The notes under the pieces are model-generated. The model made no database searches, had not been told where the DNA came from, and was given only the letters and a program-made list of their open reading frames with translations. The position numbers were made by a program, and so were the translations under genes. Positions 11,619 through 57,640 of a stretch of 64,000 nucleotides of DNA are shown here, one piece after another. Source of the stretch: Paucisalibacillus globulus (GTDB taxonomy: Bacteria > Bacillota > Bacilli > Bacillales > Amphibacillaceae); assembly GCF_900184735.1 (NCBI RefSeq), contig NZ_LT855395.1, positions 186,001 through 250,000 of the forward strand, read 5' to 3'. Positions within the stretch are counted from its first letter, which is position 1. Each line of letters begins with the position of its first letter.

Positions 11619-12095
11619 TTTGTGACTGATTTTGGGAAGGTTGTGACCGTGGTGGGTGAGCTTGTGACTGCGGGGCCTGGGCTTGTGACTGATTGTAGCG
11701 AGCTTGCGACTGATTATGGGAAACATCTGACTGAGAAACTTAAGCTTGTGCCCGACTGAGAAAAGCTTGCGACCGAGAAACTTGAGCTTGTGACCGATTA
11801 TGGGAAACATGCGACCGAGAAACTTGAGCTTGTGCCCGACTGAGAAAAGCTTGTGACCGAGAAACTTGAGCTTGTGACCGATTGAGAAAAGCTTGTGACC
11901 GAGAAACTTGAGCTTGTGACCAATTTGGGAAAACTTGTGTCCGAGAAACTTGAGCTTATGACCAATTTGGGAAAACTTTTGACCGAGGGACCTGGGCTTG
12001 GTACCAATTGCCGAAAGCTTGTTACCAAAGTACTCTTGCTTGTGCCCATTCCACATATGTATGCGCCCGCAAGTTACGAGCTTGCACCCAATCCC
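11619..12095 (+). repeat. 21-bp periodic repeat array 1 (glyA-upp intergenic)
   Basis: About 23 head-to-tail units of exactly 21 bp fill the gap between the glyA terminator and the upp promoter region. The core on the plus strand is CTTGTGACC, with variants CTTGCGACC, CATGCGACC and CTTGTGCCC. Two linker types, GAGAAACTTGAG and GATTGAGAAAAG, alternate in the centre, giving a 42-bp higher-order repeat. Edges are more degenerate. Open frames of up to 169 codons on the minus strand result from the period being divisible by 3. They have no ribosome site, so no protein is called. Confidence 0.9.
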
Positions 12096-12149
12096 TAGCA
12101 CCATTTACACAAATCAAATTGCCAAACCCCCATCAACACAAACAACAAA

Positions 12150-12180
12150 AAAGAGGACACCAAACCTGGTATCCTCTCCC
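12150..12180 (-). terminator. Terminator of glyA
   Basis: GAGGACACCA (from 12153) pairs with TGGTATCCTC (to 12176), followed on the minus strand by TTTTTTG. It lies 11 nt past the glyA stop; repeat array 1 begins beyond it. Confidence 0.9.
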
Positions 12181-12187
12181 TAATATT

Positions 12188-13423
12188 TTACACATATAAA
12201 GGTGATTTTTCTGTTAATGCTAGTACACGGTCTGCTGCTTCTTTTAGTACTGTTTCATTTTCATGATCATGTAGGGTCATGGAAATGATGCTTGCGATTT
12301 CGCGCATTTCTTGTTCTTTGAAGCCACGAGTTGTAACAGCTGGTGTTCCGATGCGGATTCCGCTTGTTACGAATGGGCTTTCTGTGTCGAATGGAATCGT
12401 GTTTTTGTTCACTGTGATTCCGATTTCGTCTAAGACATGCTCTGCAATTTTTCCAGTGATGCCAAGTGGTGTTACATCTAGTAATAATAGGTGGTTGTCT
12501 GTACCGCCTGATACTACACGGATTCCTTCTGCCACTAATGCTTCCCCTAGTGCTTTTGCATTGGCGATGATTTGCTGGTTATATACTTTGAAATCATCGG
12601 ATAGTGCTTCTTTGAATGCCGTTGCTTTTGCAGCGATGATGTGCATTAATGGACCACCTTGCATTCCTGGGAATACTGCTTTATCCACTTTCTTTGCATA
12701 TTCTTCTTTACAAAGAATCATTCCGCCGCGTGGACCACGTAATGTCTTATGAGTTGTTGTTGTGACAAAGTCTGCATATGGTACTGGATTTGGGTGTAGA
12801 CCAGCTGCTACCAGTCCTGCGATATGCGCCATGTCTACCATTAGATAGGCACCAACAGCATCTGCTATTTCACGGAATTTAGCAAAGTCAAGCGTGCGAG
12901 AATAGGCACTTGCTCCTGCTACGATTAATTTTGGATTCACTTCTTTTGCTTTTTCTAGCACCTTATCATAATCCAGTGTTTCGGTTTCTTTTTCCACACC
13001 ATAATCTACAAAGTTGTATAGTGTTCCACTAAAGTTAACAGGGCTACCATGTGTTAGATGCCCACCGTGATTTAGATTCATACCAAGGACTGTATCTCCT
13101 GGCTCAAGCATGGAGAAATATACAGCCATATTTGCTTGTGCACCAGAGTGTGGTTGTACGTTAGCGTGTTCTGCACCAAATAGCTCTTTTGCACGGTCAC
13201 GAGCTAGGTTCTCCACTACATCAACATGTTCACAGCCACCATAGTAGCGTTTACCTGGATATCCTTCTGCATATTTGTTAGTAAGTACGGATCCCATTGC
13301 TTCCATTACCGATTCTGATACAAAGTTTTCAGATGCGATTAATTCGATTTTAGTTTGTTGGCGTTTTTTTTCTGCTTCCATTGCTTCAAATAGTTCGTGG
13401 TCTGTTTGTTTTAAGTGTTCCAT
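12188..13423 (-). CDS. glyA: Serine hydroxymethyltransferase
   Basis: PLP enzyme interconverting serine and glycine while charging tetrahydrofolate with a one-carbon unit. The PLP lysine is K226 in [14 protein letters not shown], and the N-terminal [11 protein letters not shown] and [10 protein letters not shown] substrate-site motifs are present. Full length (411 aa). ATG start after GGGAGGATTACC. It is cytosolic, monocistronic by its own terminator, and in the conserved position between upp and ywlG. Confidence 0.99.
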
Positions 13424-13528
13424 TGGTAATCCTCCCTGTGGTTATGATTTCAATGCCGACCATTGGCCAGCATCAGTAGCATGTATTTTCTTTTAAAAAA
13501 TAACAACCTATTTATCTAAGAAACTTTA

Positions 13529-14089
13529 TCAATAAGGATTTCTATCTCCTGGCACACCATAAAATGCTCTTGATCCGCCTATTAATTTAGGACGGGTTTT
13601 GGCGGCGTTCACTCTTGCTTGGCCTATGTATCGTTGGTTTAGTCTTATAGGTACGGCAACATGTTTGAGGTGCATACCGATCATGGTTTCTCCTATGTCA
13701 ATGCCGGCATGGGCTTTAAGGTGTTCCACGACAACTGGGTTTTCCATATGTTTATAGGCATAGGATGCCATGGCCCCTCCTGCTTTCGGTACAGGAATGA
13801 CCGATACCTCTTCTAACCCGAATTCCTCGGCTGTCTCTCGCTCTACTACAAGTGCCCGGTTTAGATGTTCACAGCATTGAAACGCTAGATGGATTCCAGT
13901 TCTTAATTTAGCCGCTGTTAATGCAGAAAATAATTGTGCTGCGATATCTTCATTTCCGGATGTACCAATATGTTCACCAGCAACTTCGCTTGTTGAGCAA
14001 CCGGTTACAAAAATGGATCCGCTCTTAAGAATGTTCTGATTCTCAAGCTCTAATAAAATAATTTGTGAATCTCTTTTTATACTATCCAT
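13529..14089 (-). CDS. ywlG: YwlG family protein (UPF0340/TIGR01440)
   Basis: Conserved Firmicute protein of unknown function, 186 aa from the preferred ATG at 14089. The N-terminal frame also contains GTG (14104) and ATG (14101) starts, but these fall inside or next to the AAGGTGAT ribosome-site sequence. Motifs seen are VTGCSTSEVAGEHIG, FQCCEHLNRALV, PVPKAGGAMASYAY and IGMHLKHVAVP. The Cys/His-rich pattern suggests an alpha/beta enzyme, but no reaction is assigned. It follows rpiB in the same direction, as in B. subtilis. Confidence 0.85.
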   Translation of the reverse strand: MDSIKRDSQIILLELENQNILKSGSIFVTGCSTSEVAGEHIGTSGNEDIAAQLFSALTAAKLRTGIHLAFQCCEHLNRALVVERETAEEFGLEEVSVIPVPKAGGAMASYAYKHMENPVVVEHLKAHAGIDIGETMIGMHLKHVAVPIRLNQRYIGQARVNAAKTRPKLIGGSRAFYGVPGDRNPY

Positions 14090-14146
14090 TGTCTTATCCA
14101 TCACCTTACTTAGATATTTGGCGGGGTGGACTCCCCGCCATAATAA

Positions 14147-14593
14147 TTATAGATTTTTATCTTCGTAAGCAGTTAACTTATCAAGGCGTCTTTGGTGACG
14201 GTCCCCTTCGAAATCTGTTTCTAACCATGCTTTTGCGATCTCTCTAGCAAGACCAGGGCCAATTACGCGCTCCCCTAATGCAATCATATTGGAATTATTG
14301 TGCATACGAGTTAGTTTAGCACTGTAAACATCAGAAAGAAGTGCACAACGAATTCCTTTTACTTTGTTTGCTGCAATGGACATTCCAATTCCAGTTCCAC
14401 ATACTAGAATTCCACGGTCAAATTCACCACTTGCAACTCGTTCCGCTGCTGGTAGGGCATAGTCAGGATAATCTACCGATGTTTCACAGCTACAGCCTGT
14501 ATCCTCATATGCAATACCCATTTCATCTAGTAAGCTTTTTACTTCATTACGTATCGTCATTCCTGCGTGGTCACCTGAAATAATTACTTTCAT
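14147..14593 (-). CDS. rpiB: Ribose-5-phosphate isomerase B
   Basis: Interconverts ribose 5-phosphate and ribulose 5-phosphate (RpiB/LacAB family). SGDHAG at the N-terminus, C65 of GILVCGTGIGMSIAANK (the catalytic base in RpiB) and the MHNNSNMIALGERVIG substrate loop are present. 148 aa is the normal length. In B. subtilis it is ywlF, in the same order between ywlE and ywlG. Here a chemoreceptor gene intervenes before ywlE. Confidence 0.93.
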   Translation of the reverse strand: MKVIISGDHAGMTIRNEVKSLLDEMGIAYEDTGCSCETSVDYPDYALPAAERVASGEFDRGILVCGTGIGMSIAANKVKGIRCALLSDVYSAKLTRMHNNSNMIALGERVIGPGLAREIAKAWLETDFEGDRHQRRLDKLTAYEDKNL

Positions 14594-14619
14594 TGTTATT
14601 AGCTCCTTCTCTTGTTGTA

Positions 14620-15912
14620 TTAGTTCATACGGAATTTTTGTATTTGATTATTTAACTCACTAGCTTGCTCCTCTAATTCATGGACGAGATGATCCACTTT
14701 ACCAATAGAAGCCGCTTGCTCGTGTATAGAAGCATTCACTTCTTCTGCTCCTGCTGACGTTTCTTCTGCAATCGCTGCAACCTCTTGAGATTGTGAGGCT
14801 GTCGCTTGGATTGAAGCTAGTTGTTGATTCACGATAGATAAGATTACATCAATTTCACCAGCTACTTCTTCCACTGAACCAGACATTTGCTCAATGGAGG
14901 CGTTGGTTGTCACACCATTATTTGATTCTCGAATTGCGAGCTGAACATTTTCATTAATCTTATTCACTACTTGGTTCACATCATCTTGAATAGCTTCGAT
15001 TAAACTAGAAATACGTCCAACCGCTTGGGCGCTTTGATCTGCTAACTTACGAATTTCTTCTGCAACTACCGCAAACCCTTTTCCATGCTCCCCTGCTCTT
15101 GCCGCTTCAATCGAAGCATTAAGCGCTAGAAGGTTCGTTTGTTCGGCAATTTCTCCAACCATGGTGATGATGGACTCCACTTGAAGTGCATTTTCTTTTA
15201 AATGATCAACGTCCTTCAAGGATAGCTCTTGATCTTTTGCTAGTTTTTGAATACCTTCGACCAGTTGATGTACTACTTGTTTACTGTCATTTAAAGTTGA
15301 TAGCATGGTTGTTGACTTCTCTTTGGATAGTCCCGCTTTTTCTTGAACCTTCTGTGCTAAAGCAGTTGCTTCTTCCACAGATTCAACGGTTTGCTGAATT
15401 GCTTCAGATGAGCTCTCTGCTCCCTTTGAAATATCCTCAACCGATGCACTAATTAAATCGGAATGCTGCGCAACCATGCTAGAAGCAGCTCTGAGTTGTA
15501 CTACCGATTCATTCGTATTCTTGAAATGGACATCTATATTTTGCACCATTTCTTGAAGATTTTTTAGCATCGTATCAAATGATGTGCTTAACGCACGGAT
15601 TTCATCATCAGAAGACGGAATTACTACCTCTTGGTTAAGTTGTCCATTTGCTACTTCTGAGGCAACAGCTGCCAACCGATCCAATGGTTTGGTAATCAAC
15701 CTAGCCGCAAAAAATGCTAACAGTCCAGACCAGATGATACCTAAGAGTAAAATTACAATAGTATAAACTTCCATGGAAACCTGCCAAAAATCTACTACAT
15801 AGTCATAAAGAAAGTACAGAAAGAATGCACTAGTGGAGTAAGTAATAATCGCTAATATTGTTGTGAATAATACAAGCTTTAATCTTAATCCAAAGCGGTA
15901 TTTTTTGCTCAT
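14620..15912 (-). CDS. Methyl-accepting chemotaxis-type transducer with minimal sensor region
   Basis: Membrane chemoreceptor signalling to CheW/CheA. Two membrane helices (about 12-36 and 49-70) are joined by only about 12 residues, so there is no extracellular ligand domain. A HAMP domain (about 71-123) and the cytoplasmic signalling hairpin follow, with the near-invariant tip [20 protein letters not shown]. Such receptors sense signals in or near the membrane, or through partners. It is inserted between rpiB and ywlE, where B. subtilis has no receptor. Confidence 0.9.
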
Positions 15913-15994
15913 CTCGTTTTTCCCCCAGCTTGTGTAAGTATTTTCTATTTTTATTTAGCTCGAGCACTGTAAAGGGCGCTATTAGCTTTTTTAT

Positions 15995-16597
15995 TTATTT
16001 TATCTTTTTTAGTAATAGCTCAATATAATCTTCTAATTCTTCTAGTGTTTTTTGATATGTGGCTATGTCTCCACCGAATGGGTCGGAAATATCATAGTTG
16101 ATTAAGCTGCTTTCTAGTTGACTAATCTTCTGGATATCAGGTTGTAAATATTCACGGAGCTTTTCTTCCAGTTGGACATTATTCAATTTATGTTGATATT
16201 CTTGGATGATTTGAGATTTTTTCATTTCATATTCCGCATAAAGCGATTTCAATTCATCCCATACTTTCCGGTCAGAGTCCGATACAAATTCCTTTAATGT
16301 ATAATACTTATCTTGAAAATTAGGATATTCCATGATGAGTGACTGCTTGTGTCCTGTTGTCATTAATAGTACAACGTCCGCCCAATTTAGAAGTTTTTCA
16401 TCAACCGGTTTGGATTGATGGCTAAGCTCGATTCCCTTCTTGTCTAAAAGTGTAACAACATGCTTTGATGCACGTTGATTTTTAGCCGCAAAGATTCCTG
16501 CTGATTTTACTTCTGCTCCTGGTAATTTACTTTTTAACAAAGCCTCAGCCATTGGACTACGACAAGTATTACCAGTACAAACAAACAAGATTTTCAT
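15995..16597 (-). CDS. ywlE: Protein arginine phosphatase YwlE-like, with an extra helical insertion
   Basis: Low-molecular-weight phosphatase fold. The P-loop is CTGNTCRSP with nucleophile C7 and R13; T11 in the loop is the residue that favours phospho-arginine over phosphotyrosine in YwlE. The general acid is D172 in DPFGGD. The protein is 200 aa where B. subtilis YwlE is about 150. The difference is a charged, Lys/Glu/Gln-rich segment at about 106-168, probably helical, between LKEFV and DPFGGD. YwlE reverses McsB arginine phosphorylation in protein quality control. Function call is good; the role of the insertion is unknown. Confidence 0.88.
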   Translation of the reverse strand: MKILFVCTGNTCRSPMAEALLKSKLPGAEVKSAGIFAAKNQRASKHVVTLLDKKGIELSHQSKPVDEKLLNWADVVLLMTTGHKQSLIMEYPNFQDKYYTLKEFVSDSDRKVWDELKSLYAEYEMKKSQIIQEYQHKLNNVQLEEKLREYLQPDIQKISQLESSLINYDISDPFGGDIATYQKTLEELEDYIELLLKKIK

Positions 16598-17002
16598 GAA
16601 GAACCTCCATTCCGGTGAGAATCATCTATATAACTAAAATATAACATAGAATTATGACAGTTGACAGAAAAAGAATATAAAGTAAAATACAATACAACAG
16701 AGAATTCTGAATTCCGATTCAGTTTGTGTTTTCTTTCCAAAAATGATTACTTTGGTACAACATTCAAAAACCTCATAGTGCATTAGACCTAGATAATTTT
16801 TCATAAATTCGTTAAAAGTGAGAAAAATGTAGAAATTCTAATTCATAAGTATTACTATTAAGAGGATGAAATAAAAATACCTAAGCTACCAATTTACTAT
16901 TTCAATTTGCACTTTCCATTTTGTTTAACATAGCCCTTGGTATTTCTCTATACAATATAGAGAAGTCTCATTTAGGTATTATCCTTTGGGAGGGGAAAAG
17001 AA
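16598..17002. other. 405-bp intergenic region between ywlE and the YkvS-like gene
   Basis: AT-rich divergent promoter region. It contains the perfect 9-bp inverted repeat at 16944-16964 close to the plus-strand gene. I see no riboswitch, tRNA or further coding sequence. Confidence 0.6.
16944..16964 (+). promoter_or_regulatory. Perfect inverted repeat upstream of the YkvS-like gene
   Basis: TTCTCTATA CAA TATAGAGAA (9-bp arms, 3-nt spacer) lies 38 nt before the start codon of the 64-aa gene, where a promoter -10 region or operator would be. It could be a repressor site or a short RNA hairpin. Confidence 0.5.
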
Positions 17003-17197
17003 ATGAATAATAATGAAACAGCAAATGTAGGGGATGTTGTCCTTTTTGACAGAAGGAATCAACAGTATGAAGGTAAAGTATTTCAAGTAAGGGAAAATAG
17101 TGTACTAGTTGAATTATCAAAGGATGCAGCAAAGATTTTAGGGTATGAAATGCCTAACACTGTAGTGAGACACGGAAAATATAGTATTATATCATAA
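17003..17197 (+). CDS. YkvS/DUF2187 family small protein
   Basis: A 64-residue protein with the DUF2187 pattern: GDVVLFDRRN near the N-terminus, GKVFQVRENSVLVEL in the middle, and a C-terminal NTVVRHGKYSII. It looks like a small SH3-like beta-barrel. Members such as YkvS of B. subtilis have no assigned function. ATG start with GGGAGGGG 8 nt upstream. It stands alone on the plus strand among minus-strand genes and ends at a terminator shared with mntP. Confidence 0.8.
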   Translation: MNNNETANVGDVVLFDRRNQQYEGKVFQVRENSVLVELSKDAAKILGYEMPNTVVRHGKYSIIS

Positions 17198-17223
17198 TGA
17201 ACTGGGAGACTTCTCCCTAACAA

Positions 17224-17256
17224 ATGAGGATGCCCATATCGGACATCCTCTTATTA
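17224..17256. terminator. Bidirectional terminator between the YkvS-like gene and mntP
   Basis: GAGGATGCCC pairs with GGACATCCTC (7-bp arms extended by CC/GG). It is flanked by T-rich sequence on the plus strand and by ATTTG on the minus strand, between two convergent genes. Confidence 0.8.
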
Positions 17257-17261
17257 ATTTC

Positions 17262-17798
17262 TTAGAAAATGATATAGAGGCCAAATCCACAAAGAATACT
17301 ACCTCCAAGTATTTCGCTATAGGCACCTAATAATCCTTGCGCTTTTCTCCCAATTAGCATCCCAGCCCAAGTTAAGACCATACTACTTGCCCCGAAAAGT
17401 ATTATAGTTAGAGCTGTTTTCACCTCAGATAACCCTAAGCTTAGACCAACAGAAAAACTATCAATACTAACACTTAAGGCTAAAATTACTAACCCTAAGC
17501 CTGCAGTCTGCACAACTTTTGTCGCTTCATGATTAAAGGCTGAAAACAACATATGTGCCCCAATCGCAAACAGCAACAGACCGCCAGCCAAGGTTGTCCA
17601 ATCGCCAATTTGCCCGGAGATAAATTTCCCTACCACAATTCCCAGGAACGGCATGATAATGTGGAATAATCCAATCACAATGCCAATAAACGCAATTCGC
17701 TTCAACCGAACCTTCTGCATACCCAGCCCAAGGCTAACAGAAAAAGCATCCATTCCTATAGCAACAGCCATCATTAATACTGAAATTATTTCACCCAT
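17262..17798 (-). CDS. mntP: Putative manganese efflux pump MntP
   Basis: Six-helix membrane protein (178 aa) with two homologous halves. Each half carries the signature Asp motif: AIGMDAFSVSLGLGM (about 13-27) and ALSVSIDSFSVGLSLGL (about 107-123). The family exports Mn2+ (YwlD in B. subtilis). ATG start behind AAGGGGG. No yybP-ykoY Mn2+ riboswitch fits upstream, because repeat array 2 begins within about 50 nt of the start codon. Confidence 0.9.
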   Translation of the reverse strand: MGEIISVLMMAVAIGMDAFSVSLGLGMQKVRLKRIAFIGIVIGLFHIIMPFLGIVVGKFISGQIGDWTTLAGGLLLFAIGAHMLFSAFNHEATKVVQTAGLGLVILALSVSIDSFSVGLSLGLSEVKTALTIILFGASSMVLTWAGMLIGRKAQGLLGAYSEILGGSILCGFGLYIIF

Positions 17799-17846
17799 GA
17801 ATCATCCCCCTTGGACATGCCTTTTACACTATATGCTGGGGTGGAT

Positions 17847-18310
17847 GGGAATATGATTGGTGCGTGGGATTGGGTTTATGCTTTGAGGTTTTGGGCGCAT
17901 GGTCCGTGGAGGCGGGCTCATGGTTCGTGGGATCGGGCGCATGATCCCTGGGATTGGGTGCATGGTGCGCGGGATTGGGCGCATACTCCCTGGGGGCGGG
18001 CTCATGATGCGCGAGATTGGGCGCAAGCTCCGTGGGATCGGGTACATGATGCGCGGGATTGGGCGCATACTCCGTTGGGGCGGGCTCATGATGCGCGGGA
18101 TTGGGCGCATACTCCATGGGGCGGGCTCATGATATGCGGGATTGGGCGCATACTCCGTGGGACCGGGCACATGATATGCTGGATTGGGCGTATAGTCCAT
18201 GAGTTCGGGTTCATGGTGCGCTAGATTGGGCGCATACTCCGTGGGTTCGGGCGCATGCTCCAGTTTTACGGGCACATGCTCCAAGATTACAAGCACAGTC
18301 ACTAAAATCG
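17847..18310 (-). repeat. 21-bp periodic repeat array 2 (ywlC-mntP intergenic)
   Basis: About 20 units of 21 bp (one unit of 20 bp near 18103) fill the gap between the ywlC terminator and mntP. On the plus strand the units begin GGGCGCATG, GGGCTCATG or GGGCACATG. Read on the minus strand the core is CATGCGCCC, CATGAGCCC or CATGTGCCC, the same core as in array 1 in the opposite orientation. Linkers are GC-rich (CCGTGGGATC-like). Frames of more than 130 codons are open on both strands and have no ribosome sites; not called as genes. Confidence 0.9.
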
Positions 18311-18324
18311 GGAGCAAGCCATAA

Positions 18325-18366
18325 AAAAAGAGGCGCATGCTAACCGGTTTTGGTTACATGCGCCAC
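18325..18366 (-). terminator. Terminator of ywlC, built from a repeat-like sequence
   Basis: GGCGCATGCTAACC (18332-18345) pairs with GGTTACATGCGCC (18352-18364) with one bulged base, followed on the minus strand by a run of seven T after CTC. Both arms contain the CATGCGCC core of the neighbouring array. Confidence 0.88.
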
Positions 18367-18373
18367 TTCCTCA

Positions 18374-24514: not shown

Positions 24515-24629
24515 CACGTTCACCTCACTCAGATTAACATTCTAATTATAGTATACAGAAAGGATGAGGTCAAAATTCTTTTTTGGATTTGGGATTATTA
24601 GGGTTGGGGAGTGCCGCTTTGGGCTGGAG

Positions 24630-25049
24630 CTTGTGACTTTATTTGCTTATCTTGTGACCAATTTTACTCACCATGTGACCAATGGCATTATACATGCGAC
24701 CGAAAACGCAGACCATGTAACCAACTCTGCTCTTCATGTGACCTTGCGTATCATGCATGCGACCAAGTTCACATACCTTGCGACCGAAAACGCAGACCAT
24801 GTAACCAACTCTGCTCTTCATGTGACCTTGCGTATCATGCATGCGACCAAGTTCGAATATCTTGGGCCTGAGAACACAGACCATGTGACCGATAATGATC
24901 ACCTTGTGACCAGAAGCACGGTGCTTGCGACCAAATTCACACAACTTACGACCGAGAACAGAAACCATGTGACCGACTCTGCTCATCTTGTGACCAAGAA
25001 CACTATACATGTGACCAAATCCACCAATAATGTGCCCGCCCAAATCAGT
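24630..25049 (+). repeat. 21-bp periodic repeat array 3 (tdk-prfA intergenic)
   Basis: Twenty units of 21 bp lie between the tdk terminator and prfA, with core CATGTGACC, CATGCGACC, CATGTAACC or CTTGTGACC on the plus strand. Linkers differ from those of arrays 1 and 4. A 75-bp block (24696-24770) recurs exactly at 24780-24854, 84 bp (four units) later, showing recent expansion by whole units. Open frames here (171 aa on plus, 134 aa on minus) are by-products. Confidence 0.92.
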
Positions 25050-25059
25050 TCACATACAA

Positions 25060-25092
25060 AAAATGAGCATCCTCAATAAGGATGCTCTCAAA
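25060..25092 (-). terminator. Terminator of tdk
   Basis: GAGCATCCT (25065-25073) pairs with AGGATGCTC (25079-25087), then ATTTTTTG on the minus strand, just past the tdk stop. Confidence 0.9.
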
Positions 25093-26161: not shown

Positions 26162-26208
26162 GTCTTTCACTCCTTCTGCCCTGAATCCTTTGGAAACAGA
26201 GTTATTTT

Positions 26209-26489: not shown

Positions 26490-27770
26490 TTATTTCCCTG
26501 TTCGTTTACGCTGCATTTCCTCTTCTATTTTTTGTAAAAATAGATCATTGCTTTCAGATGCTTTTAGTTTTCTAAGGAATCGTTCTAAGAAATCAGGAGA
26601 ATCCTGCATAGTCTTACGAATTGCCCACATTTTATCTAGTTGGCCCTTATTCACTAGTAGCTCTTCTTTACGAGTTCCAGAGCGTAAGATATCAATCGCA
26701 GGGAAAATCCTACGGTTCGCAAGGTTGCGGTCTAGGTGTAATTCCATGTTACCTGTACCTTTGAATTCTTCGTAGATTACATCATCCATACGTGAACCGG
26801 TGTCAACTAGTGCCGTTGCTAAGATAGTGAAACTTCCACCTTCTTCAATATTACGCGCGGCACCGAAGAAACGTTTTGGACGGTGAAATGCTGCTGGGTC
26901 AATACCACCAGAAAGTGTACGTCCACTTGGAGGTATAACAAGGTTATAGGCACGGGCAAGTCGTGTAATACTGTCCATTAACACGATAACATCACGTTTG
27001 TGTTCTACTAAACGCATAGCACGTTCAAGAACAAGTTCAGATACTTTAATATGGTTCTCTGGTACTTCATCAAATGTAGAGCTTACCACGTCAACGTCTG
27101 GGCTAACAGAACGTTCAATGTCTGTTACCTCCTCTGGACGCTCGTCTACTAATAGTATGATTAATTTTGCTTCTGGATGATTGACGGTAATACTATTTGC
27201 AATCTCTTTAAGAAGCATCGTTTTACCAGCTTTTGGTGGGGCAACGATTAAACCACGTTGACCAAAGCCTACTGGTGCCATTAAGTCCATAATTCTAGTG
27301 GATAGCTTGTTTGATTTTGTTTCGAGCTTCATTAAGCGATCTGGGTATAATGCTGTTAGGGCTGGGAAGTGTACTCTTTCTTTTGATGAGTCTGGGTCTT
27401 CACCGTTTACCGCATCAACATGCAACAAACCGTAATAACGTTCGTTTTCTTTCGGAGGTCGTACTTTACCAGATACTTTATCCCCATTACGTAAATCGAA
27501 TCTACGTATTTGAGATGCTGAAATATAAATATCTTCTGCACTTGGAGAATAGTTAATCGGTCTTAAGAAACCAAATCCTTCTGAAGGGATAATCTCTAAT
27601 ACCCCATCCATGAATAAAAAGCCATCTTTTTCTGCTTGAGCTTTTAAGATTGAAAAAATAAGTTCTTTCTTCGTTAATTTCGCATAATAAGATACCTTAT
27701 ACTCTCTTGCTAATGCGTAAATTTCTTTTAGATTTAGTTCTTGAAGCTTACTTAATGTTAGTTCTGCCAT
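26490..27770 (-). CDS. rho: Transcription termination factor Rho
   Basis: RNA-dependent ATPase helicase that ends transcription. N-terminal RNA-binding domain: Rho_N (1-48), cold-shock-like domain with [21 protein letters not shown] (about 64-84). ATPase domain: P-loop PPKAGKT at 178-184, Walker [17 protein letters not shown], and the secondary RNA loop. 426 aa, a normal length for Bacillaceae. ATG start. It precedes rpmE as in B. subtilis. Confidence 0.98.
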
Positions 27771-36339: not shown

Positions 36340-36516
36340 GCGGCCCGAATACACTTCGCTTTCCGCGGGCGGCTGGTGAGCCTCGGGCCAACAGGATGTT
36401 GGTCACAAAGGCGTTGCCACAGGACGTGGCGTTCTTAGCCTTTGAACCCCTATTTAGTCTTGTGGGGTCTCACCGATGCCTTTCCTCCCGCAGGAGTCTT
36501 CGTGTATTCGGGCCGC
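36340..36516. repeat. GC-rich hairpin element, copy B3, with an alternative internal module
   Basis: Same closing stem as B1 (GCGGCCCGAATACAC...GTGTATTCGGGCCGC), but the central loop is replaced at about 36380-36462 by a module holding two small hairpins, CAACAGGATGTTG and GCCACAGGACGTGGC, and the partly complementary CAAAGGC/GCCTTTG. It begins about 95 nt past the icmF stop and no other terminator is seen there. Confidence 0.85.
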
Positions 36517-44837: not shown

Positions 44838-44877
44838 GTGATGCACCTCCTGTTTTTTTGTGGAATGAGGCAGTGGG

Positions 44878-45253
44878 CTTGTGACCTTGTGGCCGGAGCT
44901 TATGACTGGTTGCCTCGAGCTTGTGACCTTCTGGCCGGAGCTTGCGACCTCTTGCCACGAACTTGTGACCTTCTGCGCGAAGCTTGTGACCTCTTGGCCG
45001 GAACTTGTGACCTTCTGCGCGAAGCTTGTGACCGCTCGGCCGGAGCTTGTGACCAACTGCCACGCGCTTGTGACCAACTGCCACGTGCTTGTGACCTTTT
45101 GGCCGGAACTTGTGACCTTCTGCGCGAAGCTTGTGACCATCCCCTCTGAACATGTGCCCTGCAACCTGGACCTTATGACCGTTAGCCCGAACCATGGGAC
45201 CTCTCTACCGAATCATCTGCCCGTCTCAACGCAACATATGCCCAACACCCAAA
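44878..45253 (+). repeat. 21-bp periodic repeat array 4 (thl-hbd intergenic)
   Basis: Eighteen units of 21 bp lie between the thiolase stop (45289) and the ribosome site of the 3-hydroxyacyl-CoA dehydrogenase gene. Core CTTGTGACC on the plus strand is nearly invariant in the centre, with CATGTGCCC-type variants at the right end. Linkers are GC-rich, for example TTCTGCGCGAAG and TCTTGGCCGGAA. No terminator separates thiolase from the array, so it may be transcribed within the operon. Confidence 0.92.
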
Positions 45254-45288
45254 CTATTCCTCATCCCAAACCAAATCCTATTAATCTA

Positions 45289-49870: not shown

Positions 49871-49890
49871 TCACACTTGCACCCATTAGC

Positions 49891-50127: not shown

Positions 50128-50237
50128 AATATCACGACTGGTCGCTAATCAGTCTTATAGCTTAGATTTTTATCTAAAGGCCCGTTAGCTAAAAAATCAC
50201 ACAATAATTGCTGTTATAAAGATGTGACAATAAGTCA

Positions 50238-50522
50238 TTATTTCGTTCCTTTTCGATCTAAAAGAATAGGTGCTATATTTAGTAAGATAGAAACAATAGT
50301 CAGAAACCACAATGCTCTTTCCATACTAGGTACAACATCCATTAAAGCCGCCCAATCTTCCACCTCTACCCATGTCGATACAAGACTGTACTCTGCACAC
50401 AGAGTTAATGCTGTGAATGATAATCCTATCGCCATAGCAAGCTTATAATCCTTTCCTGCTTTATACAAATAAAGATTTATAAAGGTTGCTACTATTGCTA
50501 TAACCCCTAATATTACCCACAT
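50238..50522 (-). CDS. Small three-helix membrane protein, unknown function
   Basis: A 94-aa protein with about three hydrophobic segments (2-20, 27-45, 69-86) and a charged tail RKGTK. The ATG at 50522 (MWVILGVIAIVATF) has GGAGG 7 nt before it; an ATG 15 codons upstream lacks one. I do not recognise a named family. It lies in the AT-rich accessory patch between fadF and argS. Confidence 0.7.
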   Translation of the reverse strand: MWVILGVIAIVATFINLYLYKAGKDYKLAMAIGLSFTALTLCAEYSLVSTWVEVEDWAALMDVVPSMERALWFLTIVSILLNIAPILLDRKGTK

Positions 50523-50688
50523 AAGTATACCTCCATAAATTCGTGTTACAATACCAATGTGCATCATCTATCTTTTTCATTGCTTTTTTTAGACATTATT
50601 ACGTCAAATCTTATTTTATAGTAAGTACCCTTACTTTTGTGATTTTTCATTTAAACAAACATACCCCGTTAGTTGACAAATAACCATT

Positions 50689-51567
50689 TTACAATTGTGA
50701 TATCATTCTTTCTATTGTTCTAATGATGACATCTGGTCTATCTTTATGTATTTCATGGTCACTACCATCTGCAATTATCAGTTCACCCTTATTAGTTAAA
50801 TGTGATAGTTCAATCTGTAAATCTCTCCATACCTCTTCGTGTAGAAATGCTTCTTCCTTTGGGATACCATGCTCGATAAAAGGTTTAGCTGATAACTCTT
50901 TGTCTCTTGCTATCACCATCAATGGTATAGTAGGGAATTCGCCTAATTCAACTATTAATTGGCTACTTCTTTCCCAATTCATAAATTCGTTTGCAATGGT
51001 ACGAAATAAGGTAGGGCTGGTAATAAAGTTCTTAAAACTTTCAGTGTCTTGCTTGAGTAAATTACTTTCATATTCTTCAATCATATTTGTAAACATTTGA
51101 TATAGTTCTTCTTTTGACTTTTTTGATGAATCTATGTTGCTTTCAATCATTTTCTCTAAAGAAATCATAGAATACATGACCGGGAGATTTAGGTTATATA
51201 AGCGTTTGAAGTTTTGTGATGTCGCATCTACTAAAATGATTCCTTTAAGCTTTTCAGGAAACATTTTTGCATATTGTTGAGCACATAGACCACCGAAAGA
51301 ATGTCCTATTAAAATAAACGGTTCTTCAATATGTAGTTTCTTAATCAGTTCATTTAGTTCCATTGCAATATTGGAAACGGTTCTTTGTTTCTTTGACGCT
51401 CTACTATTACCGTATCCAGCTCTATGATATATAACAATTTTATAATTATCTTTTATCTGCTCTAAAAATGAAAACCAATTATAAAAAGAATTACCTATTC
51501 CTATTTCTATAACAATGGTAGGTCCTTTTTCACCAATGACTAGATGTTCAAGTTCTAATTCATCCAT
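50689..51567 (-). CDS. Alpha/beta hydrolase
   Basis: A 292-aa alpha/beta hydrolase-fold protein. The nucleophile elbow is GHSFGG with S90, the oxyanion segment is EIGIGNSFYNW (about 21-31), YHRAGYGNSRAS follows beta strand 4, and the C-terminal His is in DGSDHEIHKDRP. Substrate unknown (esterase, lipase or epoxide-type hydrolase possible). ATG start with AAGGAGTA. Accessory-patch gene. Confidence 0.87.
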   Translation of the reverse strand: MDELELEHLVIGEKGPTIVIEIGIGNSFYNWFSFLEQIKDNYKIVIYHRAGYGNSRASKKQRTVSNIAMELNELIKKLHIEEPFILIGHSFGGLCAQQYAKMFPEKLKGIILVDATSQNFKRLYNLNLPVMYSMISLEKMIESNIDSSKKSKEELYQMFTNMIEEYESNLLKQDTESFKNFITSPTLFRTIANEFMNWERSSQLIVELGEFPTIPLMVIARDKELSAKPFIEHGIPKEEAFLHEEVWRDLQIELSHLTNKGELIIADGSDHEIHKDRPDVIIRTIERMISQL

Positions 51568-51721
51568 ATAAATACTCCTTTATAATTGCCATATCATTTA
51601 ATAAATGAGGGACTTCAACTAACTAAATATATTTCTACTTACAATAGCCCGGCATGTATAAAATCTTCTAACACAATATTAACATAATATTCCAAACGCA
51701 TTATAGAGTTGTTAACCATAA

Positions 51722-51751
51722 TAAAAAGGTGACCTTCTTAGGTCACCTTCT
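51722..51751 (-). terminator. Terminator of the 197-aa gene
   Basis: AAGGTGACC (51726-51734) pairs with GGTCACCTT (51741-51749), then TTTTTAT on the minus strand. Confidence 0.85.
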
Positions 51752-51797
51752 TTTAGAATTGCACTAGTTGAACGATACTTCTCTTTTAAAAAACTTT

Positions 51798-52391
51798 TTA
51801 TGCAGGAAAATCATCCATAATTTCTACGACTTCAATCTTTCCATTTATCAATAGTTCAGGAAGTTCGTTACTAATATTGCCGTTCCAATATTCTCTTGCT
51901 TGTTCTATTTTTTTAGAGAATGAAGTTCCGTCTTCTTTTGGTAAAAGATCCCCATCCCCTTCAAAATAATTCCCAACAACTTTTAATTTAACAATCTGCA
52001 ATACCTTACGATTGAAAGAATCAAATATTTGTTTCCATTTCAATACATCCTCATAAGTTTTAGCAGCGTATAAGCAGGATAATCTGGAAGGGTATTGAGA
52101 ATACTCTTTTAATCGAACCATTTCTACTATCACTTCTCTAATAGCTCTAGTTGTTTGCCCAATATATCTAATAGCTGTATCCGCATTTTCTTTATCTAAA
52201 TATAAACCTTCATTGGTGTATTGACACTGTAAAATTTGAATAAAATCTTCACCTTTAGAATTTATTTGTTCCTTTTCAAAGAAGAATCGATATAAGGAAT
52301 TATATTGATTCTCATCAAAGTTGATTACCTGCCCAAGACTCATTTTATTCCTAGTAACAATGTGATAAGCAAAGAATTGGTTTTCTCCCAT
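51798..52391 (-). CDS. Hypothetical protein, DUF2441-like
   Basis: A 197-aa soluble protein. The start ([18 protein letters not shown]), the [22 protein letters not shown] region and the later [20 protein letters not shown] segment resemble DUF2441 proteins, which have an ADP-ribosyltransferase-like look (H near the start, a [12 protein letters not shown] helix, Ser-Arg later). That assignment is tentative and from memory. ATG start with GGAGATTAAC. Last gene of the accessory patch before argS. Confidence 0.6.
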
Positions 52392-52590
52392 AGTTAATCT
52401 CCTAAAATTTATATATTTTTCAGTGCTTTATTCAACTAAACTGCCCATAGTTTCAGTACTTTTCTTCAAAAACTCTTATCTGATATTAACATATTTTGTT
52501 AATATATTTTAAATTGCATTTCAATTTCTTCAATAGATTACCCCTGTTAATTACCGCTAATAATCTCATACAACCACTTATACAATATAA

Positions 52591-52628
52591 AAAATAGTGC
52601 TAAACCTTATGTGATTTAGCACTATTTT
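52591..52628 (-). terminator. Terminator of argS
   Basis: AAAATAGTGCTAAA (52591-52604) pairs perfectly with TTTAGCACTATTTT (52615-52628), with TTTTTTATATTG on the minus strand. 75 nt past the argS stop. Confidence 0.9.
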
Positions 52629-52702
52629 TGTAATGTACTATTCAATTTTCTTCAAATAAACTGAACTACTAAGAAAAAGCAGGTTTTAAATCTACTAACT
52701 TC

Positions 52703-54373
52703 CTACATCTTCTCTGGTGCATTTACACCAATCAACTTCAACGCATTCGCAATCGTCGTTCTTACTGCCTTCATCAATGCTATTCTCGCATTGGTTAATT
52801 CAAGATGATCGGTATCCAATACTTTCTCTGCATTGTAGAAACTGTGTAGTAAGGAAGCTAGATCAAATACATATTGCGTGATTTTCTGTGGTGCATGTTT
52901 ATCAGCCGCATCTACGATTACTTGTGGGTATTCTCCCATTTTCTTAAGTAGATCTAGCTCTTTTTCAGAAGTTAGTAATGACGAATCAAACGTTTGTTTG
53001 AACTCTATACCCTTTGCTTCTGCTTGTTTTAGCATGGTACAAATTCTTGCATGTGCATATTGTACATAGTATACCGGGTTGTCATTAGACTGAGAACGCG
53101 CCAGTTCCACATCAAAGTCAAGCTGAGAATCATTCGAACGAGCTACGAAGAAATAGCGCACAGCATCAATTCCTACCTCATCCATTAGCTCTCTAAGTGA
53201 TACGGCATTACCAGTACGTTTGCTCATACGAAGCTTTTCGCCACCATCAAATAGGTTTACCATTTGAATGATTTTTACATCCAGTTTATCTGCTTCATAC
53301 CCAAGTGCTTGGATTGCCGCTTTCATTCTTGGGATGTACCCATGGTGGTCAGCTCCCCACACATTGATCAGTTTATCAAATCCGCGGTTTAATTTGTTTT
53401 GATGGTAAGCAATATCCGGTGTTAAATACGTAAATGCCCCATCATTCTTTACTAGCACACGATCTTTATCGTCACCGAAATCTGTTGAACGGAACCATGT
53501 CGCACCGTCTTTTTCATAAATATAGCCGCCTGCTTCTAACTTGGTTAGTACATCTTTGATTTCATCATTCTTATAAAGACTTCTTTCAGAGAACCAATTG
53601 TCAAAATGAACACCAAAGTCATTGAGGTCTTTCTTGATCTTCCCTAATGTATACTCTAGTCCGTATTCTTTAAAGAATGCTAGACGCTCTTCTTCTGATT
53701 TGTTAGCGTATGTTTCCCCATGTTCAGCTGCTAGTTCTTTTCCAATTTCAATAATATCTTGACCACGGTAGCCATCTTCCGGCATTTCCGCTTCTTGCCC
53801 TAAGGCTTGTAGATATCGTGCATTCACGGATAATGCAAGATTATCAATTTGGTTTCCAGCATCATTGATATAGTATTCACGCTCTACTTCATATCCTGCA
53901 GCATCTAACACACTACATAAAACATCCCCAAATGCTGCCCCACGAGCATGCCCAAGATGTAGGTTTCCAGTTGGGTTTACGGACACGAACTCAACTTGCA
54001 CTTTATTGCCTTTACCATATTCCGTTCTACCGTAATTTTCCCCCGCTTCTAATATTGTCGGGATTAAATCAGTCAAAAAGTCATTTTTCATGAAGAAGTT
54101 TATGAATCCAGGACCTGCAATATCCACTTTTTCCACAGAAGCTTTGGATGCATCTAAATGTTCTACGATAGCTTCTGCAATTTGTCTCGGTGCTTTCTTT
54201 GCGATTCGTGCTAATTGCATCGCGATATTGGTCGCAAAGTCCCCATGTGACTTATCCTTTGGCTTTTCTAGTATAATATTTGGAATTTCAGCTTCTGTCG
54301 CAAGTTCCGCTTTCAGAACCGCTGCATGGATTTCTTCTTTTAAATTGGTTTCTGTTTGTGCTAAGACGTTCAT
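52703..54373 (-). CDS. argS: Arginyl-tRNA synthetase
   Basis: Class I aminoacyl-tRNA synthetase (556 aa). HIGH motif is HLGH at 139-142 ([18 protein letters not shown]); KMSKS-like loop is [10 protein letters not shown]-terminal Arg-specific tRNA D-loop domain (1-115) and C-terminal anticodon helical bundle are present. The ATG overlaps the ywiB stop by 1 nt (TAATG), giving translational coupling. No T-box leader precedes the operon. Confidence 0.98.
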
Positions 54374-54801
54374 TATGCGTCCTCCTTATTAATGGTAAGT
54401 GTTAGCTTATGTTTACGTTCCTGTTGTCCGTTCAATTTTACCGTGTAATCAATTATTAGTTGCCCCTCTTGTTGAATGTCCATCGCTTGATAGTATAGAG
54501 AGTTTGTATAAGTTTCCATATGTATGTTGCCATGTGGATGTGTGTAGACATTTTCCGTTACTTTCTCCATACGGAATTGTTGATTCATGGAGATGATTCC
54601 TGACCTTTTGATATTAACCTTTTCCGGATGTATTGTGATGAAACTTTTAATCAGATGATTATCCTCTGTCTTCTCTTCAAAGGTAATCACATCCATCTTG
54701 TCTTTTCGATAAAACTTTCCAATTTGTTTACTTGAATTGGTTTCTTGTTGGCCATTGTCTTCAATAACCGTTTGTAAATGAATTCTAACTTGTTGTTCCA
54801 A
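54373..54801 (-). CDS. ywiB: YwiB family beta-barrel protein (DUF1934)
   Basis: A 142-aa calycin-like beta-barrel protein of unknown function that is conserved upstream of argS in Bacillaceae. The N-terminal [16 protein letters not shown], central DVITFEEK and [12 protein letters not shown], and C-terminal [23 protein letters not shown] strand pattern are typical. ATG start. Overlap with argS suggests co-translation. Confidence 0.88.
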
Positions 54802-54879
54802 AATTGCACGCCCCTACCTTGCTCGTATTTATCTATTATAGCGACAACTGAAGCCCGTTTTCAATATATATAATTAGAA

Positions 54880-54909
54880 GTTTATTTCCCTGAATATTCA
54901 CCCATAATG
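54880..54909 (+). promoter_or_regulatory. Candidate forespore (sigma-F/G) promoter of the PBP gene
   Basis: GTTTA (54880-54884), 18 nt, CATAATG (54903-54909) resembles GYATR-N17/18-CATWMTA. B. subtilis pbpG is forespore-expressed, so this fits the gene call. Sequence evidence alone is moderate. Confidence 0.45.
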
Positions 54910-54953
54910 ATAATAATTGACAGATTACGACAAAACCAGATGGAGTCTTGCAT

Positions 54954-56996
54954 ATGGAGAAAAAATCCCTACGAAAAAAGATTAACCGTATTCTATTAAA
55001 AACAGTGTTTGGATTTACTCTAACAGCGGTATCTGCTGTTCTATTGATATACCTTGTAGCCCTTATACTTGGACCACCTAATTTAATGAATGAACAAAAT
55101 ACGATTTATTATAGCATAGACAATGAGGTGATTGGAGAAGAACAAGGTGTAGAAAATCGATATTGGGTGGATCTTGAGAAAATGTCTCCTTATGTTATTG
55201 ATGCAACATTAATGATAGAGGATCAACGATTTTTCCAGCATAATGGCTTTGATATCAAGAGAATTCTTGGTGCTATTCTGAAGGATATTAAAACAATGTC
55301 CTTAAAAGAAGGAGCCAGTACCCTTACCCAACAGTATGCCCGAAATCTATACCTTTCCCACGAAAAGACTTGGACAAGAAAATTAAAAGAAGCATTTTAT
55401 GCGATACGACTCGAAATGTATTATTCAAAGGAAGAGATTTTGGAGGGTTATTTGAATACGGTCTACTACGGTCATGGAGCATACGGGATTGAAGCTGCAA
55501 GTATACATTTTTTCAATAAATCAGCTAGCGAACTGACTATTGCAGAAGCTGCCATGCTTGCCGGAATTCCGAAAGGGCCAACTTATTATTCTCCTTTAAA
55601 TGATTTGGAACGCGCAACCAATCGGCAAAAGCAAATTCTTTCCGTAATGAATGAAGAACATGTCATATCAGAAGAAGATTTTTATTTGGCAAGTCGAGAA
55701 AACCTGGTATATGCCGATCCAAAGGAAAGAAAGAAACTTACGATTGGCCCCTACTTCCAAGATACTGTGTTGACGGAAGCCGCTAATCGGTTAGATATTG
55801 ATCAGGAATCTGTACGGTCAGGTGGGTATCAGATTTATACTACATTAGATATCGATATGCAGGAAAAGTTGGAAAAGAGTGTAGCTAATACAATGGCTGA
55901 CACAAGTGAGATGGAAGTTGGTGCTGTTGCGGTAGACCCAAAGAATGGCGCTATTCGTGCATTAGTTGGTGGGCGCGACTACCGCCTGAGTCCCTTTAAT
56001 CGAGCAATCCAAGCAAAACGAATGCCAGGTTCCACATTCAAGCCATTTCTATACTATGCAGCATTAGAAAATGGCTACACTGCAACTACCATGCTAACGA
56101 GCAAACCGACTACCTTTGAAATTGAGGATGGCCAAGTCTATCAACCAAGTAATTTCAACGGGTATTATGCAAATGAGCCTATTACCTTAGCCCAAGCCCT
56201 GGCCGTATCGGATAATATTTATGCGGTAAAAACTAATATGTATTTAGGTGTAGAAACCTTGATTGATGCGGCTAAAGAGTTCGGGATATCAAGCGACCTA
56301 CCATCCGTACCATCCCTAGCCCTCGGAACAGCAACAGTAACCGTGGAAGAAATGGTCTCCGGGTATGGGATGCTTGCGAATGGGGGGAAAAAGATTGATG
56401 GCCATACAATCGAGAAAATTGTGGACCGCGAAGGTAAAACAGTCTATGAACGTGATGATAGTAAAAAAGAACAAACACTCGATCCACAACATGCTTTTAT
56501 CTTAACCCAGCTTATGACAGGAACATTTGACGAGTCATTGAACGGCTATATGTCAGTTACTGGAATTTCATTGGTCGATCAATTATCCCGCACATACGCT
56601 GGAAAAACCGGCTCAACCGATTCCGACACTTGGATGATTGGATATAGCCCATCACTCGTAGCTGGAGTTTGGACAGGGTATGACGATAACCGAACAATTA
56701 CGAAAATGCCAGAAAGATCCTATTCCAAGGATATATGGGCAGACTTCATGGAAAGTGCTCATCAAGATATACCTGAAGAAAACTTTAAAGCACCAGGTGG
56801 ATTAGTTGCCGTTCCAATCGACCCAGCTACCGGCTTACGCGCAACACCACACTGTCCAGTAAGTACCGTAATGTTCTTTGAAAAAGGCACAGAGCCTGAT
56901 TACCACTGTTCCGAACACTTTTACGGGGAATTAGAGCATGACACTGAGGAGGAAAAAGGCTTGTTTCAGCGGTGGTTTGAGGTGTTTTTTGAGTGA
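54954..56996 (+). CDS. pbpG: Class A penicillin-binding protein, PbpG-like
   Basis: Bifunctional glycosyltransferase/transpeptidase of peptidoglycan synthesis, 680 aa. Membrane anchor at about 17-40. GT51 domain with catalytic E89 (IEDQRFFQH), EGASTLTQQYARN and GYLNTVYYGHGAYGI. Transpeptidase domain with SxxK S360 (GSTFKP), SDN at 419-421, and KTGS at 551. Size and position (next to argS-ywiB side) match YwhE/PbpG, made in the forespore for the germ cell wall. The ATG at 54954 has GGAG 8 nt before it. Confidence 0.92.
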   Translation: MEKKSLRKKINRILLKTVFGFTLTAVSAVLLIYLVALILGPPNLMNEQNTIYYSIDNEVIGEEQGVENRYWVDLEKMSPYVIDATLMIEDQRFFQHNGFDIKRILGAILKDIKTMSLKEGASTLTQQYARNLYLSHEKTWTRKLKEAFYAIRLEMYYSKEEILEGYLNTVYYGHGAYGIEAASIHFFNKSASELTIAEAAMLAGIPKGPTYYSPLNDLERATNRQKQILSVMNEEHVISEEDFYLASRENLVYADPKERKKLTIGPYFQDTVLTEAANRLDIDQESVRSGGYQIYTTLDIDMQEKLEKSVANTMADTSEMEVGAVAVDPKNGAIRALVGGRDYRLSPFNRAIQAKRMPGSTFKPFLYYAALENGYTATTMLTSKPTTFEIEDGQVYQPSNFNGYYANEPITLAQALAVSDNIYAVKTNMYLGVETLIDAAKEFGISSDLPSVPSLALGTATVTVEEMVSGYGMLANGGKKIDGHTIEKIVDREGKTVYERDDSKKEQTLDPQHAFILTQLMTGTFDESLNGYMSVTGISLVDQLSRTYAGKTGSTDSDTWMIGYSPSLVAGVWTGYDDNRTITKMPERSYSKDIWADFMESAHQDIPEENFKAPGGLVAVPIDPATGLRATPHCPVSTVMFFEKGTEPDYHCSEHFYGELEHDTEEEKGLFQRWFEVFFE

Positions 56997-57030
56997 TGTG
57001 AGTTGGTGCTGGGTGTTTGGTTGGGCGTGG

Positions 57031-57640
57031 CGGGCGCATGGTCGGGAGCTTCGGGGCGCATGATTGGGGCTGGAGGGCTCATGTTTGGGTGTTTCGGGTG
57101 CATGGTTCGGATTATTGGGCACATGCTTGGGCTTGATGGGCTCATGTTCGGGGCTGGTGGGCACATGATTGAGCGTAGCGGGCACAAGGTCCGGCACTTT
57201 AGTCACATGGTCATGAGTTTGGGGCGCATGGTCAGGTGAATTGGGTACAAGTTTGATTTATTCGGGCGCATCTTCCTGATTAATGGGCACATGCTCGGTT
57301 TATTCGGGCGCATCTTCCTGATTAACGGGCTCATGCTCGGTTTATTCGGGCGCATCTTCCTGATTAACGGGCTCATGCTCGGTTTATTCGGGCGCATCTT
57401 CCTGACTAACGGGCTCATGATCGGTTTATTCGGGCGCATCCTCCTGACTAACAGGCACATGCTCGATCTTTTAGGGCGCATCTTCCTGATTAACGGGAAC
57501 ATGCTCGGTTTATTCGGGCGCATCCTCCTGACTAACGGGCACATGCTCGATCTTTTAGGGCGCATCCTCCTGACTAACAGGCACATGCTCGATTTTTTAG
57601 GGCGCATCCTCCTAACTATCGGACACATAACCGGCTTGCC
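57031..57640 (-). repeat. 21-bp periodic repeat array 5 (after pbpG)
   Basis: The longest array, about 29 units. On the plus strand GGGCGCATC(T/C)TCCTGA(T/C)TAAC alternates with GGGC(T/A)CATGCTCGGTTTATTC, so the minus-strand core is (C/G)ATGCGCCC alternating with CATGAGCCC or CATGTGCCC. The right two-thirds is highly regular with a 42-bp dimer; the left third is degenerate and has one 22-bp unit. It starts about 35 nt after the pbpG stop and ends before a bidirectional terminator. Frames of 149-170 codons open on both strands are by-products. Confidence 0.93.

Follow-up and report, generated by a model that had tools for sequence, protein, structure and literature searches.

Helically phased intergenic repeat arrays in Paucisalibacillus globulus and other Bacillales: candidate binding sites with a possible role as transcription insulators

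Bacterial intergenic DNA is generally thought to be lean, and the systems that come closest to the repeats described here differ widely in form. Plasmid iterons and centromere-like arrays proceed in steps of about 20 to 22 bp and present a short core on one face of the helix. Repetitive extragenic palindromic (REP) elements are palindromic, 20 to 40 bp long, and extragenic, often lie at the 3' ends of genes, and have been discussed for a role in termination. The bcr repeats of the Bacillus cereus group are interspersed elements that are intergenic and lineage restricted. Bacterial minisatellites consist of tandem units of 10 to 200 bp, and in one survey, transposed noncoding families are rare (Leptospira interrogans and Methanocella conradii) and the Bacillus families with long repeats have lengths that are multiples of 3 (BMC Evol Biol 2019; PMC6749651). 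In this study, we analyzed a 64-kb stretch of the P. globulus chromosome (the window; positions 186001 to 250000 of a contig in a 3.92-Mb genome of 23 contigs) that contains five intergenic arrays of 21-bp repeats, and we followed these arrays through the genome and its relatives. We found that the units are quantized to two or five helical turns, that a short core is constrained within the genome and usually replaced between species, and that the two-turn arrays carry a symmetric base skew. The explanation we favor, without regarding it as probable, is that the arrays are phased sites for a fast-evolving DNA-binding factor and are kept as symmetric insulators with exits suited to Rho.

The sequence-only reading of the window had proposed five intergenic arrays that share a 9-bp core in an exact 21-bp period. 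Tandem Repeats Finder (TRF) and a scan for cores spaced 21 bp apart recovered all five at the proposed sites, between genes and far above shuffles: the best six-unit scores were 46 to 48 out of 48 in the arrays, versus 27 to 32 when the bases of the window were shuffled (ten shuffles). The core scan confirmed the proposed orientations (plus in arrays 1, 3, and 4 and minus in arrays 2 and 5) and gave no sixth array in the 64 kb. The period is kept nearly throughout rather than exactly, the register being broken by a single 20-bp step in array 2 and a single 22-bp step in array 5, and TRF reports superimposed longer periods of 42, 84, 105, and 126 bp. The 9-bp core itself, proposed as C(A/T)TG(T/C/A)G(A/C)CC, is better written CWTGNGMCC; the arrays contain 61 copies of this motif, and the rest of the window has one, against an expected 4.2 ± 1.7.

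The whole-genome profile search that the same reading had called for uncovered an array family. The profile, built from sequence alone out of 27 three-unit blocks, matches the source genome at least 144 times, a lower bound because only 150 of 712 candidates were scored. The window and 20 regions fetched around matches contain 32 arrays (two overlapping, lower-scoring entries having been dropped), which lie on eight or more contigs and in mixed orientation. Thirty-one of these, leaving aside one too close to its locus end, yielded 667 units, 7 to 40 per array. Across the 31 array consensuses, the core is nearly invariant (C1 in 30, T3 in 31, G4 in 31, G6 in 30, C8 in 31, and C9 in 31), and an A two bases upstream of it carries 1.65 bits, whereas seven mid-linker columns are nearly random, holding 0.05 to 0.29 bits. 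The proposal that the core is kept while linkers drift therefore stands within one genome. Core positions 2 and 7 are coupled by a hand count (19 consensuses pair A with C, 8 pair T with A, and 4 are mixed), and the core is best kept in the middle units, where 5.43 of the 6 fixed positions match, compared with 4.92 and 5.21 at the edges. Common cores with free linkers at unrelated sites of one genome call for a trans-acting reader or very strong copying.

The unit lengths are also constrained well beyond this genome. We ran TRF on 1.297 Mb from the source genome (G000) and eight congeners, with no open reading frame (ORF) filter on periods, counting arrays of at least 90 bp and at least 2.5 copies with periods up to 200 bp; the DNA of G000 and part of that of G001 had been picked for known arrays, and the rest had not. 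All 58 noncoding arrays, in nine species, have periods of 20 to 21 bp (or multiples) or of 51 to 53 bp: 20 (n = 8), 21 (9), 40 (1), 41 (2), 42 (14), 84 (2), 51 (9), 52 (12), and 53 (1). Eleven additional arrays lie within longer ORFs, ten at 20, 21, or 42 bp and one at 24 bp; among them are array 4, counted there through an over-long mechanical ORF, an array at position 296828 of G006 that looks like a coding acidic repeat, and the 24-bp array, which is an acidic-repeat gene. The mean units of 20.8 and 51.65 bp (ORF-filtered counts) correspond to about 10.4 and 10.3 bp per turn, and we refer to the two-turn and five-turn units as classes I and II. In other genera of the family and order (1.11 Mb from 28 genomes, two of which were dropped with pieces under 1 kb), 11 of 14 noncoding arrays have periods of 20, 21, 51, or 52 bp, the exceptions being 15, 63, and 143 bp. 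Among 80 named glyA loci, fitting arrays occur in Gracilibacillus, Paraliobacillus, Indiicoccus, Bacillus renqingensis, and two Sporosarcina, and the period of 101 in Bacillus sp. CECT 9360 fits as being near 5 × 20; arrays that break the rule are found in Calidifontibacillus (67, 72, and 38) and two non-Bacillales (8 and 67). An earlier unfiltered lag scan had returned weak stretches at 12, 15, 18, 24, 27, 30, and 54, and several of these fall within the gene with acidic repeats beside pyrG. The suggestion that 21 bp represents two-turn phasing is thus supported: units of 20 to 21 or 51 to 53 bp persist in arrays whose cores are different, which makes the phasing look causal. Units of two or five turns without common linkers suggest a reader or a copying machine that works on one helix face. 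The two classes differ in internal structure: class I units are direct repeats, and an inverted pair of 8 to 12 bp at p ≤ 0.05 occurs in 2 of 33 class I consensuses versus 14 of 29 class II consensuses (25 shuffles each). In G003, the class II inverted pair ATGAGTGCCCGT / ACGGTCACTCAT resembles the class I core of the source genome, CATGTGCCC / GGTCACATG.

The spacing rule persists between species while the core does not. At E ≤ 1e-6, the core profile matches 3 of 159 family genomes, the source genome included and all of one genus (fast filters, 33 candidates scored per genome), and at E ≤ 1e-5 it matches 4 of 41 relatives. Congeners carry other cores, namely ATCCCGAAC in both the glyA-upp and tdk gaps of G009, ACATCGGACA in G008, CGCTGATAA in G006, GGTTGAT in G005, and GGC.GAT.TT in G001, several of which are alike by eye after reverse complementing (loosely GGCNSATR). 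The arrays differ wholly between species, and different cores and classes occur at one and the same gene gap. The glyA-upp gap holds an array in 8 of 11 species, source included (self-identity beyond 30 shuffles), with lags of 42 or 21 in G000, G007, G001, G010, and G008, 103 and 21 in G009, 53 in G005, and 52 in G003; the tdk gap holds clear arrays in 5 of 11 (G000, G001, G006, G008, and G009) and a marginal one, of lag 65, in G010. The sequence-only reading had made a binding function depend on arrays beyond this one strain and on a core more conserved than the linkers across genomes. The former holds narrowly, through the three genomes of one genus, and the latter by half, as the core itself is usually replaced between species; that interpretation as a whole is therefore partly supported. 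The closest named glyA relatives of the source genome are Virgibacillus oceani (84%), Oceanobacillus (81%), and Sediminibacillus (80%); together with the gene content and the Rfam matches of the window, they put it within the Bacillaceae in the wide sense. Record NZ_QWLJ01000013.1 (locus L079), titled Roseburia sp., has a glyA 82% identical to that of the source genome, second of the 80, and is probably mislabelled. The tdk gaps of G001 (L058) and G007 (L057) contain degenerate repeats that are related to each other, include words such as TCTAAAGGACAG, and may be class II arrays in decay; a lag of 51 is above shuffles in G001, and the repeats of G007 are under threshold. By eye, another ORF stands downstream of tdk in place of prfA in G002, G006, G008, and G009 (L056 to L066), so the slot after tdk also takes gene insertions.

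Class I arrays have a mirror-symmetric GC skew. When 31 arrays are divided, 90-bp flanks included, into 12 segments, the mean skew starts at +0.43, is down to -0.44 in the 11th segment, and ends at -0.14; GT content is lower in the last than in the first third of 29 of the 31 arrays. The skew and exit values by gap type that follow carry an ORF filter that spares only arrays of the expected periods. Across eight segments of 18 co-directional class I gaps, the skew starts at +0.35, reaches -0.48 in the seventh, and is +0.05 in the last, beside the downstream gene; in 13 convergent class I gaps, it goes from +0.40 to -0.27 and then -0.21. Array-free gaps are flat, at -0.12 to +0.15 (130 co-directional and 26 convergent), array-free divergent gaps (62) stay between -0.16 and +0.26, and class II arrays have a weak skew. 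Base changes within the core follow the same gradient: from the left edge to the right edge of the arrays, C>T (0.169 to 0.021) and C>G (0.069 to 0.013) become rarer, and G>A (0.071 to 0.128) and G>C (0.032 to 0.096) become more common. We do not accept C-to-T deamination as the sole cause of the skew, since C>G and G>C shift along the array too. Because the skew is mirrored on the other strand, a transcript from either side enters a C-poor stretch and leaves through a G-poor one. The best C-minus-G values in 78-nucleotide windows at the two exits have medians of 19 and 14 in 17 co-directional class I gaps versus 5 and 6 in 85 array-free gaps (p 3.6e-5 and 1.2e-4), and both exits reach at least 15 in 7 of the 17 versus 1 of the 85. 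The C-rich, G-poor stretch expected of a Rho terminator is thus present in co-directional gaps and weaker in convergent ones.

Among gaps of 60 bp or more, and with the same ORF filter, class I arrays occupy 14 of the 123 that are convergent, 20 of the 469 that are co-directional, and 4 of the 172 that are divergent. In the source genome, where regions were picked for arrays, 30 of 32 arrays have a gene on both sides, with 10 in convergent, 16 in co-directional, and 4 in divergent gaps. The mirror-symmetric skew and the preference for the 3' sides of genes together suggest a role between transcription units. The model that we tentatively favor ends in a Rho step; Rho is known to silence read-through in Bacillus subtilis. 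In this model, a DNA-binding factor with sequence specificity would recognize each core of about 9 bp, and successive cores, set on one helix face by the 21-bp step, would allow it to coat the array cooperatively. Arrays would grow in the middle through recombination or slippage of 42- to 84-bp blocks and decay at the edges, and as symmetric insulators of transcription, they may be retained between genes or at any rate tolerated there. Once coated, an array would act as a roadblock for transcription, and a read-through transcript from either side would exit via a C-rich, G-poor, rut-like stretch, where Rho could load ahead of the next gene. Between species, the factor would change together with its core, leaving the spacing rule in place.

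Several observations weigh against this model. Binding of the arrays by a protein is an inference. Arrays 2 and 4 have co-directional neighbors and no terminator predicted by our scan beside either of them, a setting in which an insulator is unexpected, and four class I gaps are divergent. The exit measure is only partly significant in convergent gaps (p 0.057 and 0.0009; both exits at least 15 in 4 of 11 versus 1 of 17) and not significant in divergent gaps (p 0.23 and 0.051). Among the species compared, the glyA-upp gap lacks an array in 3 of 11 (G006, G002, and G004, in the last of which 602 bases downstream of glyA were examined before the contig stops short of upp), and the tdk gap lacks one in 5 of 11. 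Outside the genus, 13 arrays sorted by eye have a clear skew in six cases (Paraliobacillus, two Indiicoccus, Sporosarcina thermotolerans, Gracilibacillus, and locus L229 of G014), a partial one in two (G016 and B. renqingensis), and none in five (Bacillus sp. CECT 9360, S. cyprini, two in G023, and L228 of G014).

The coordinates of the arrays and of neighboring features are collected in Table 1. Array 4 takes up its whole gene gap. The neighbors of the window arrays are housekeeping genes, none of them noted as rep or par, and the gene content of the window includes upp, glyA, prfA, tdk, rho, glpX, murA, and pyrG. The scan behind the hairpins listed beside arrays 1 and 3 finds no more terminator-like sites than it does in shuffles. 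A search of Rfam gave two gathering-level matches in the window, neither on an array: a Bacillaceae-1 RNA at 36388 to 36454 on the minus strand (76.2 bits, above the gathering score) and an L31-Firmicutes ribosomal protein leader at 26170 to 26201 on the minus strand.

Table 1. Arrays and associated features of the window (window coordinates)
Feature	Coordinates	Strand	Context	Basis
Array 1	11619..12143	+	Between upp and glyA; mostly CTTGTGACC cores; longer repeats of 42/84/126 bp	TRF, core scan
Array 2	17839..18299	-	Between mntP and sua5 (tsaC family); CATGCGCCC cores	TRF, core scan
Array 3	24588..25070	+	Between prfA and tdk; CATGTGACC cores; longer repeat of 84 bp	TRF, core scan
Array 4	44857..45276	+	Between thl (acetyl-CoA acetyltransferase) and hbd (3-hydroxybutyryl-CoA dehydrogenase); CTTGTGACC cores	TRF, core scan
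Array 5	57021..57650	-	After PBP1A-family gene (54948-56996, +); longer repeat of 42 bp	TRF, core scan
C-poor, G/T-rich edge of array 1	11575..11620	+	Example of the skew	
G-poor, C/A-rich edge of array 1	12050..12140	+	Rut-like for a plus-strand transcript	Skew, exit test
Terminator-like hairpin of glyA	12148..12181	-	Beside array 1	Terminator scan
Terminator-like hairpin of tdk	25065..25087	-	Beside array 3	Terminator scan
Inverted repeat and T-run, terminator-like	57682..57735		Beyond array 5	By eye
rho (transcription termination factor)	26490..27770	-	In the window by chance; required by the proposed mechanism	

We rate the insulator model only slightly above a selfish or neutral origin of the arrays. 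In the latter case, the arrays would be minisatellites generated by a machine, such as recombination or repair acting on protein-bent DNA, that copies stretches of two or five turns; copies whose core is intact would be amplified through recognition by the machine, with no benefit to the cell, and arrays would survive only where no gene is broken. The fast turnover, with some congeners lacking an array at the same gap, speaks for this origin, as do the best cores in the middle with degenerate edges, the depletion of arrays from coding regions, and the copies carried by transposon-like elements. By itself it leaves unexplained the mirror-symmetric skew, including the C>G and G>C changes, and the excess in convergent gaps.

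A chromosome-organizing or nucleoid-protein array without a role in transcription, the main idea of the sequence-only reading, now appears improbable to us. It would account for the phasing and core constraint and for chromosomal sites scattered over many contigs. Known chromosome organizers such as parS are conserved over wide distances, whereas the core here is limited to a few species of one genus; the mixed orientation and the location tied to gene ends speak against it as well.

Less probable still is that the arrays are cargo of nonautonomous transposons (miniature inverted-repeat transposable elements [MITEs]), that is, parts of mobile elements that spread them. All six of the G001 42-bp arrays inspected have, by eye, at least one end like GAAACTGTGCGGTAACT, and the L054 array of the source genome (about 5609 to 5839) has both, which are the terminal inverted repeats expected of a MITE. 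Ends of this type, with up to two mismatches, occur at 122, 93, and 37 places in G000, G001, and G007, precisely the three genomes that bear the source-type core, and at 0 to 2 places in the other eight congeners. These three genomes are also the closest relatives, so the co-occurrence may be due to descent. The GAAACTGTGCGGTAACT-type end, the sole end motif sought (up to three mismatches), flanks none of the five window arrays, most of its copies in the fetched DNA stand without an array, and arrays with other cores occur where it is absent. At most, then, mobility accounts for some of the spread. An array-free element at window positions 62498 to 63056, with ends like GAGACTGTGCGGTAAG and its inverse, is apparently a MITE of the family whose ends flank some arrays; its GC-rich interior resembles, by eye, the DNA after glyA in G004.

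That the arrays encode repetitive proteins, with 21 bp as seven codons, is hardly credible despite open frames of about 130 to 170 codons that span them, because sister arrays have units of 20, 40, 41, and 52 bp (the 20-, 41-, and 52-bp units excluding a codon reading), and whichever frame is taken relative to the core, at most 9 of 31 arrays are free of stops in it. A giant hairpin, suggested by array ends that look complementary, was also rejected, as neither strand of array 1 folds better than its shuffles (z 0.02 and 0.60). The end-to-end duplex of the arrays is slightly better than in shuffles (mean z -0.97, standard error 0.30, 31 arrays), and its advantage over swapped ends (p 0.0006) is confounded by shared composition.

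A broader proposal, in which many Bacillales would carry satellite DNA of two- or five-turn units whose 9- to 10-bp core is replaced by species through co-evolution with its factor and which would serve as bidirectional insulators, seems to us rather doubtful, and more so than the model for the arrays described here. A chromosome-wide set of arrays, each a few hundred base pairs long, that obey a helical rule and hold their site while their sequence is exchanged between species would imply either a widespread DNA-binding system not yet known or a new mode of repeat birth. Core, spacing, and the available contrasts (20 to 21 versus 51 to 53 bp, and gaps with and without an array) are defined enough for direct tests.

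Our literature search, which covered few subscription papers, found no description of such arrays. Four features go beyond the sequence-only reading: the quantization of periods among relatives, the mirror symmetry of the skew, the class of five-turn units, and the copies borne by transposons. CRISPR arrays, with repeats of about 21 to 48 bp, longer unique spacers, and cas genes, do not fit a 9-bp core and 12-bp linkers that are reused in longer repeats (cas genes were not searched for). The arrays are like the bcr repeats, compared by description and not by sequence, in their Bacillaceae host, intergenic site, and lineage restriction, and the bcr repeats differ in being interspersed and not phased tandem arrays. 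They share with REP elements and bacterial interspersed mosaic elements an extragenic location, many copies, and frequent placement at gene 3' ends. The class I units differ in being direct and nonpalindromic and in forming long arrays, whereas class II units do contain inverted pairs; a palindromic hairpin unit is not what we observe, with an inverted pair in 2 of 33 class I consensuses and array 1 folding like its shuffles. The likeness to iterons and centromere-like arrays lies in the step size, the short core, and the single helix face, and the direct repeats of about 20 to 22 bp with a core are indeed those of an iteron. The iteron or centromere type that the sequence-only reading had invoked is nonetheless not supported in its classical form because tens of arrays are scattered over many contigs: instead of one or a few loci with a rep gene and an origin, there are 32 arrays on eight or more contigs with housekeeping neighbors. 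Unlike iterons and centromeres, the arrays stand at dozens of chromosomal loci, in mixed orientation, and with a core replaced between species, and array 4, the sole array tried, had no match in phage and plasmid collections. The arrays are bacterial minisatellites of an unusually ordered type. As in the minisatellites of the survey (PMC6749651), the units are tandem and of 10 to 200 bp, here between genes and scattered over the chromosome, and with 7 to 40 units in the 31 arrays, they exceed the four tandem units that define the class; they are set apart from the surveyed examples by being quantized to two or five helical turns and by combining a shared core with free linkers.

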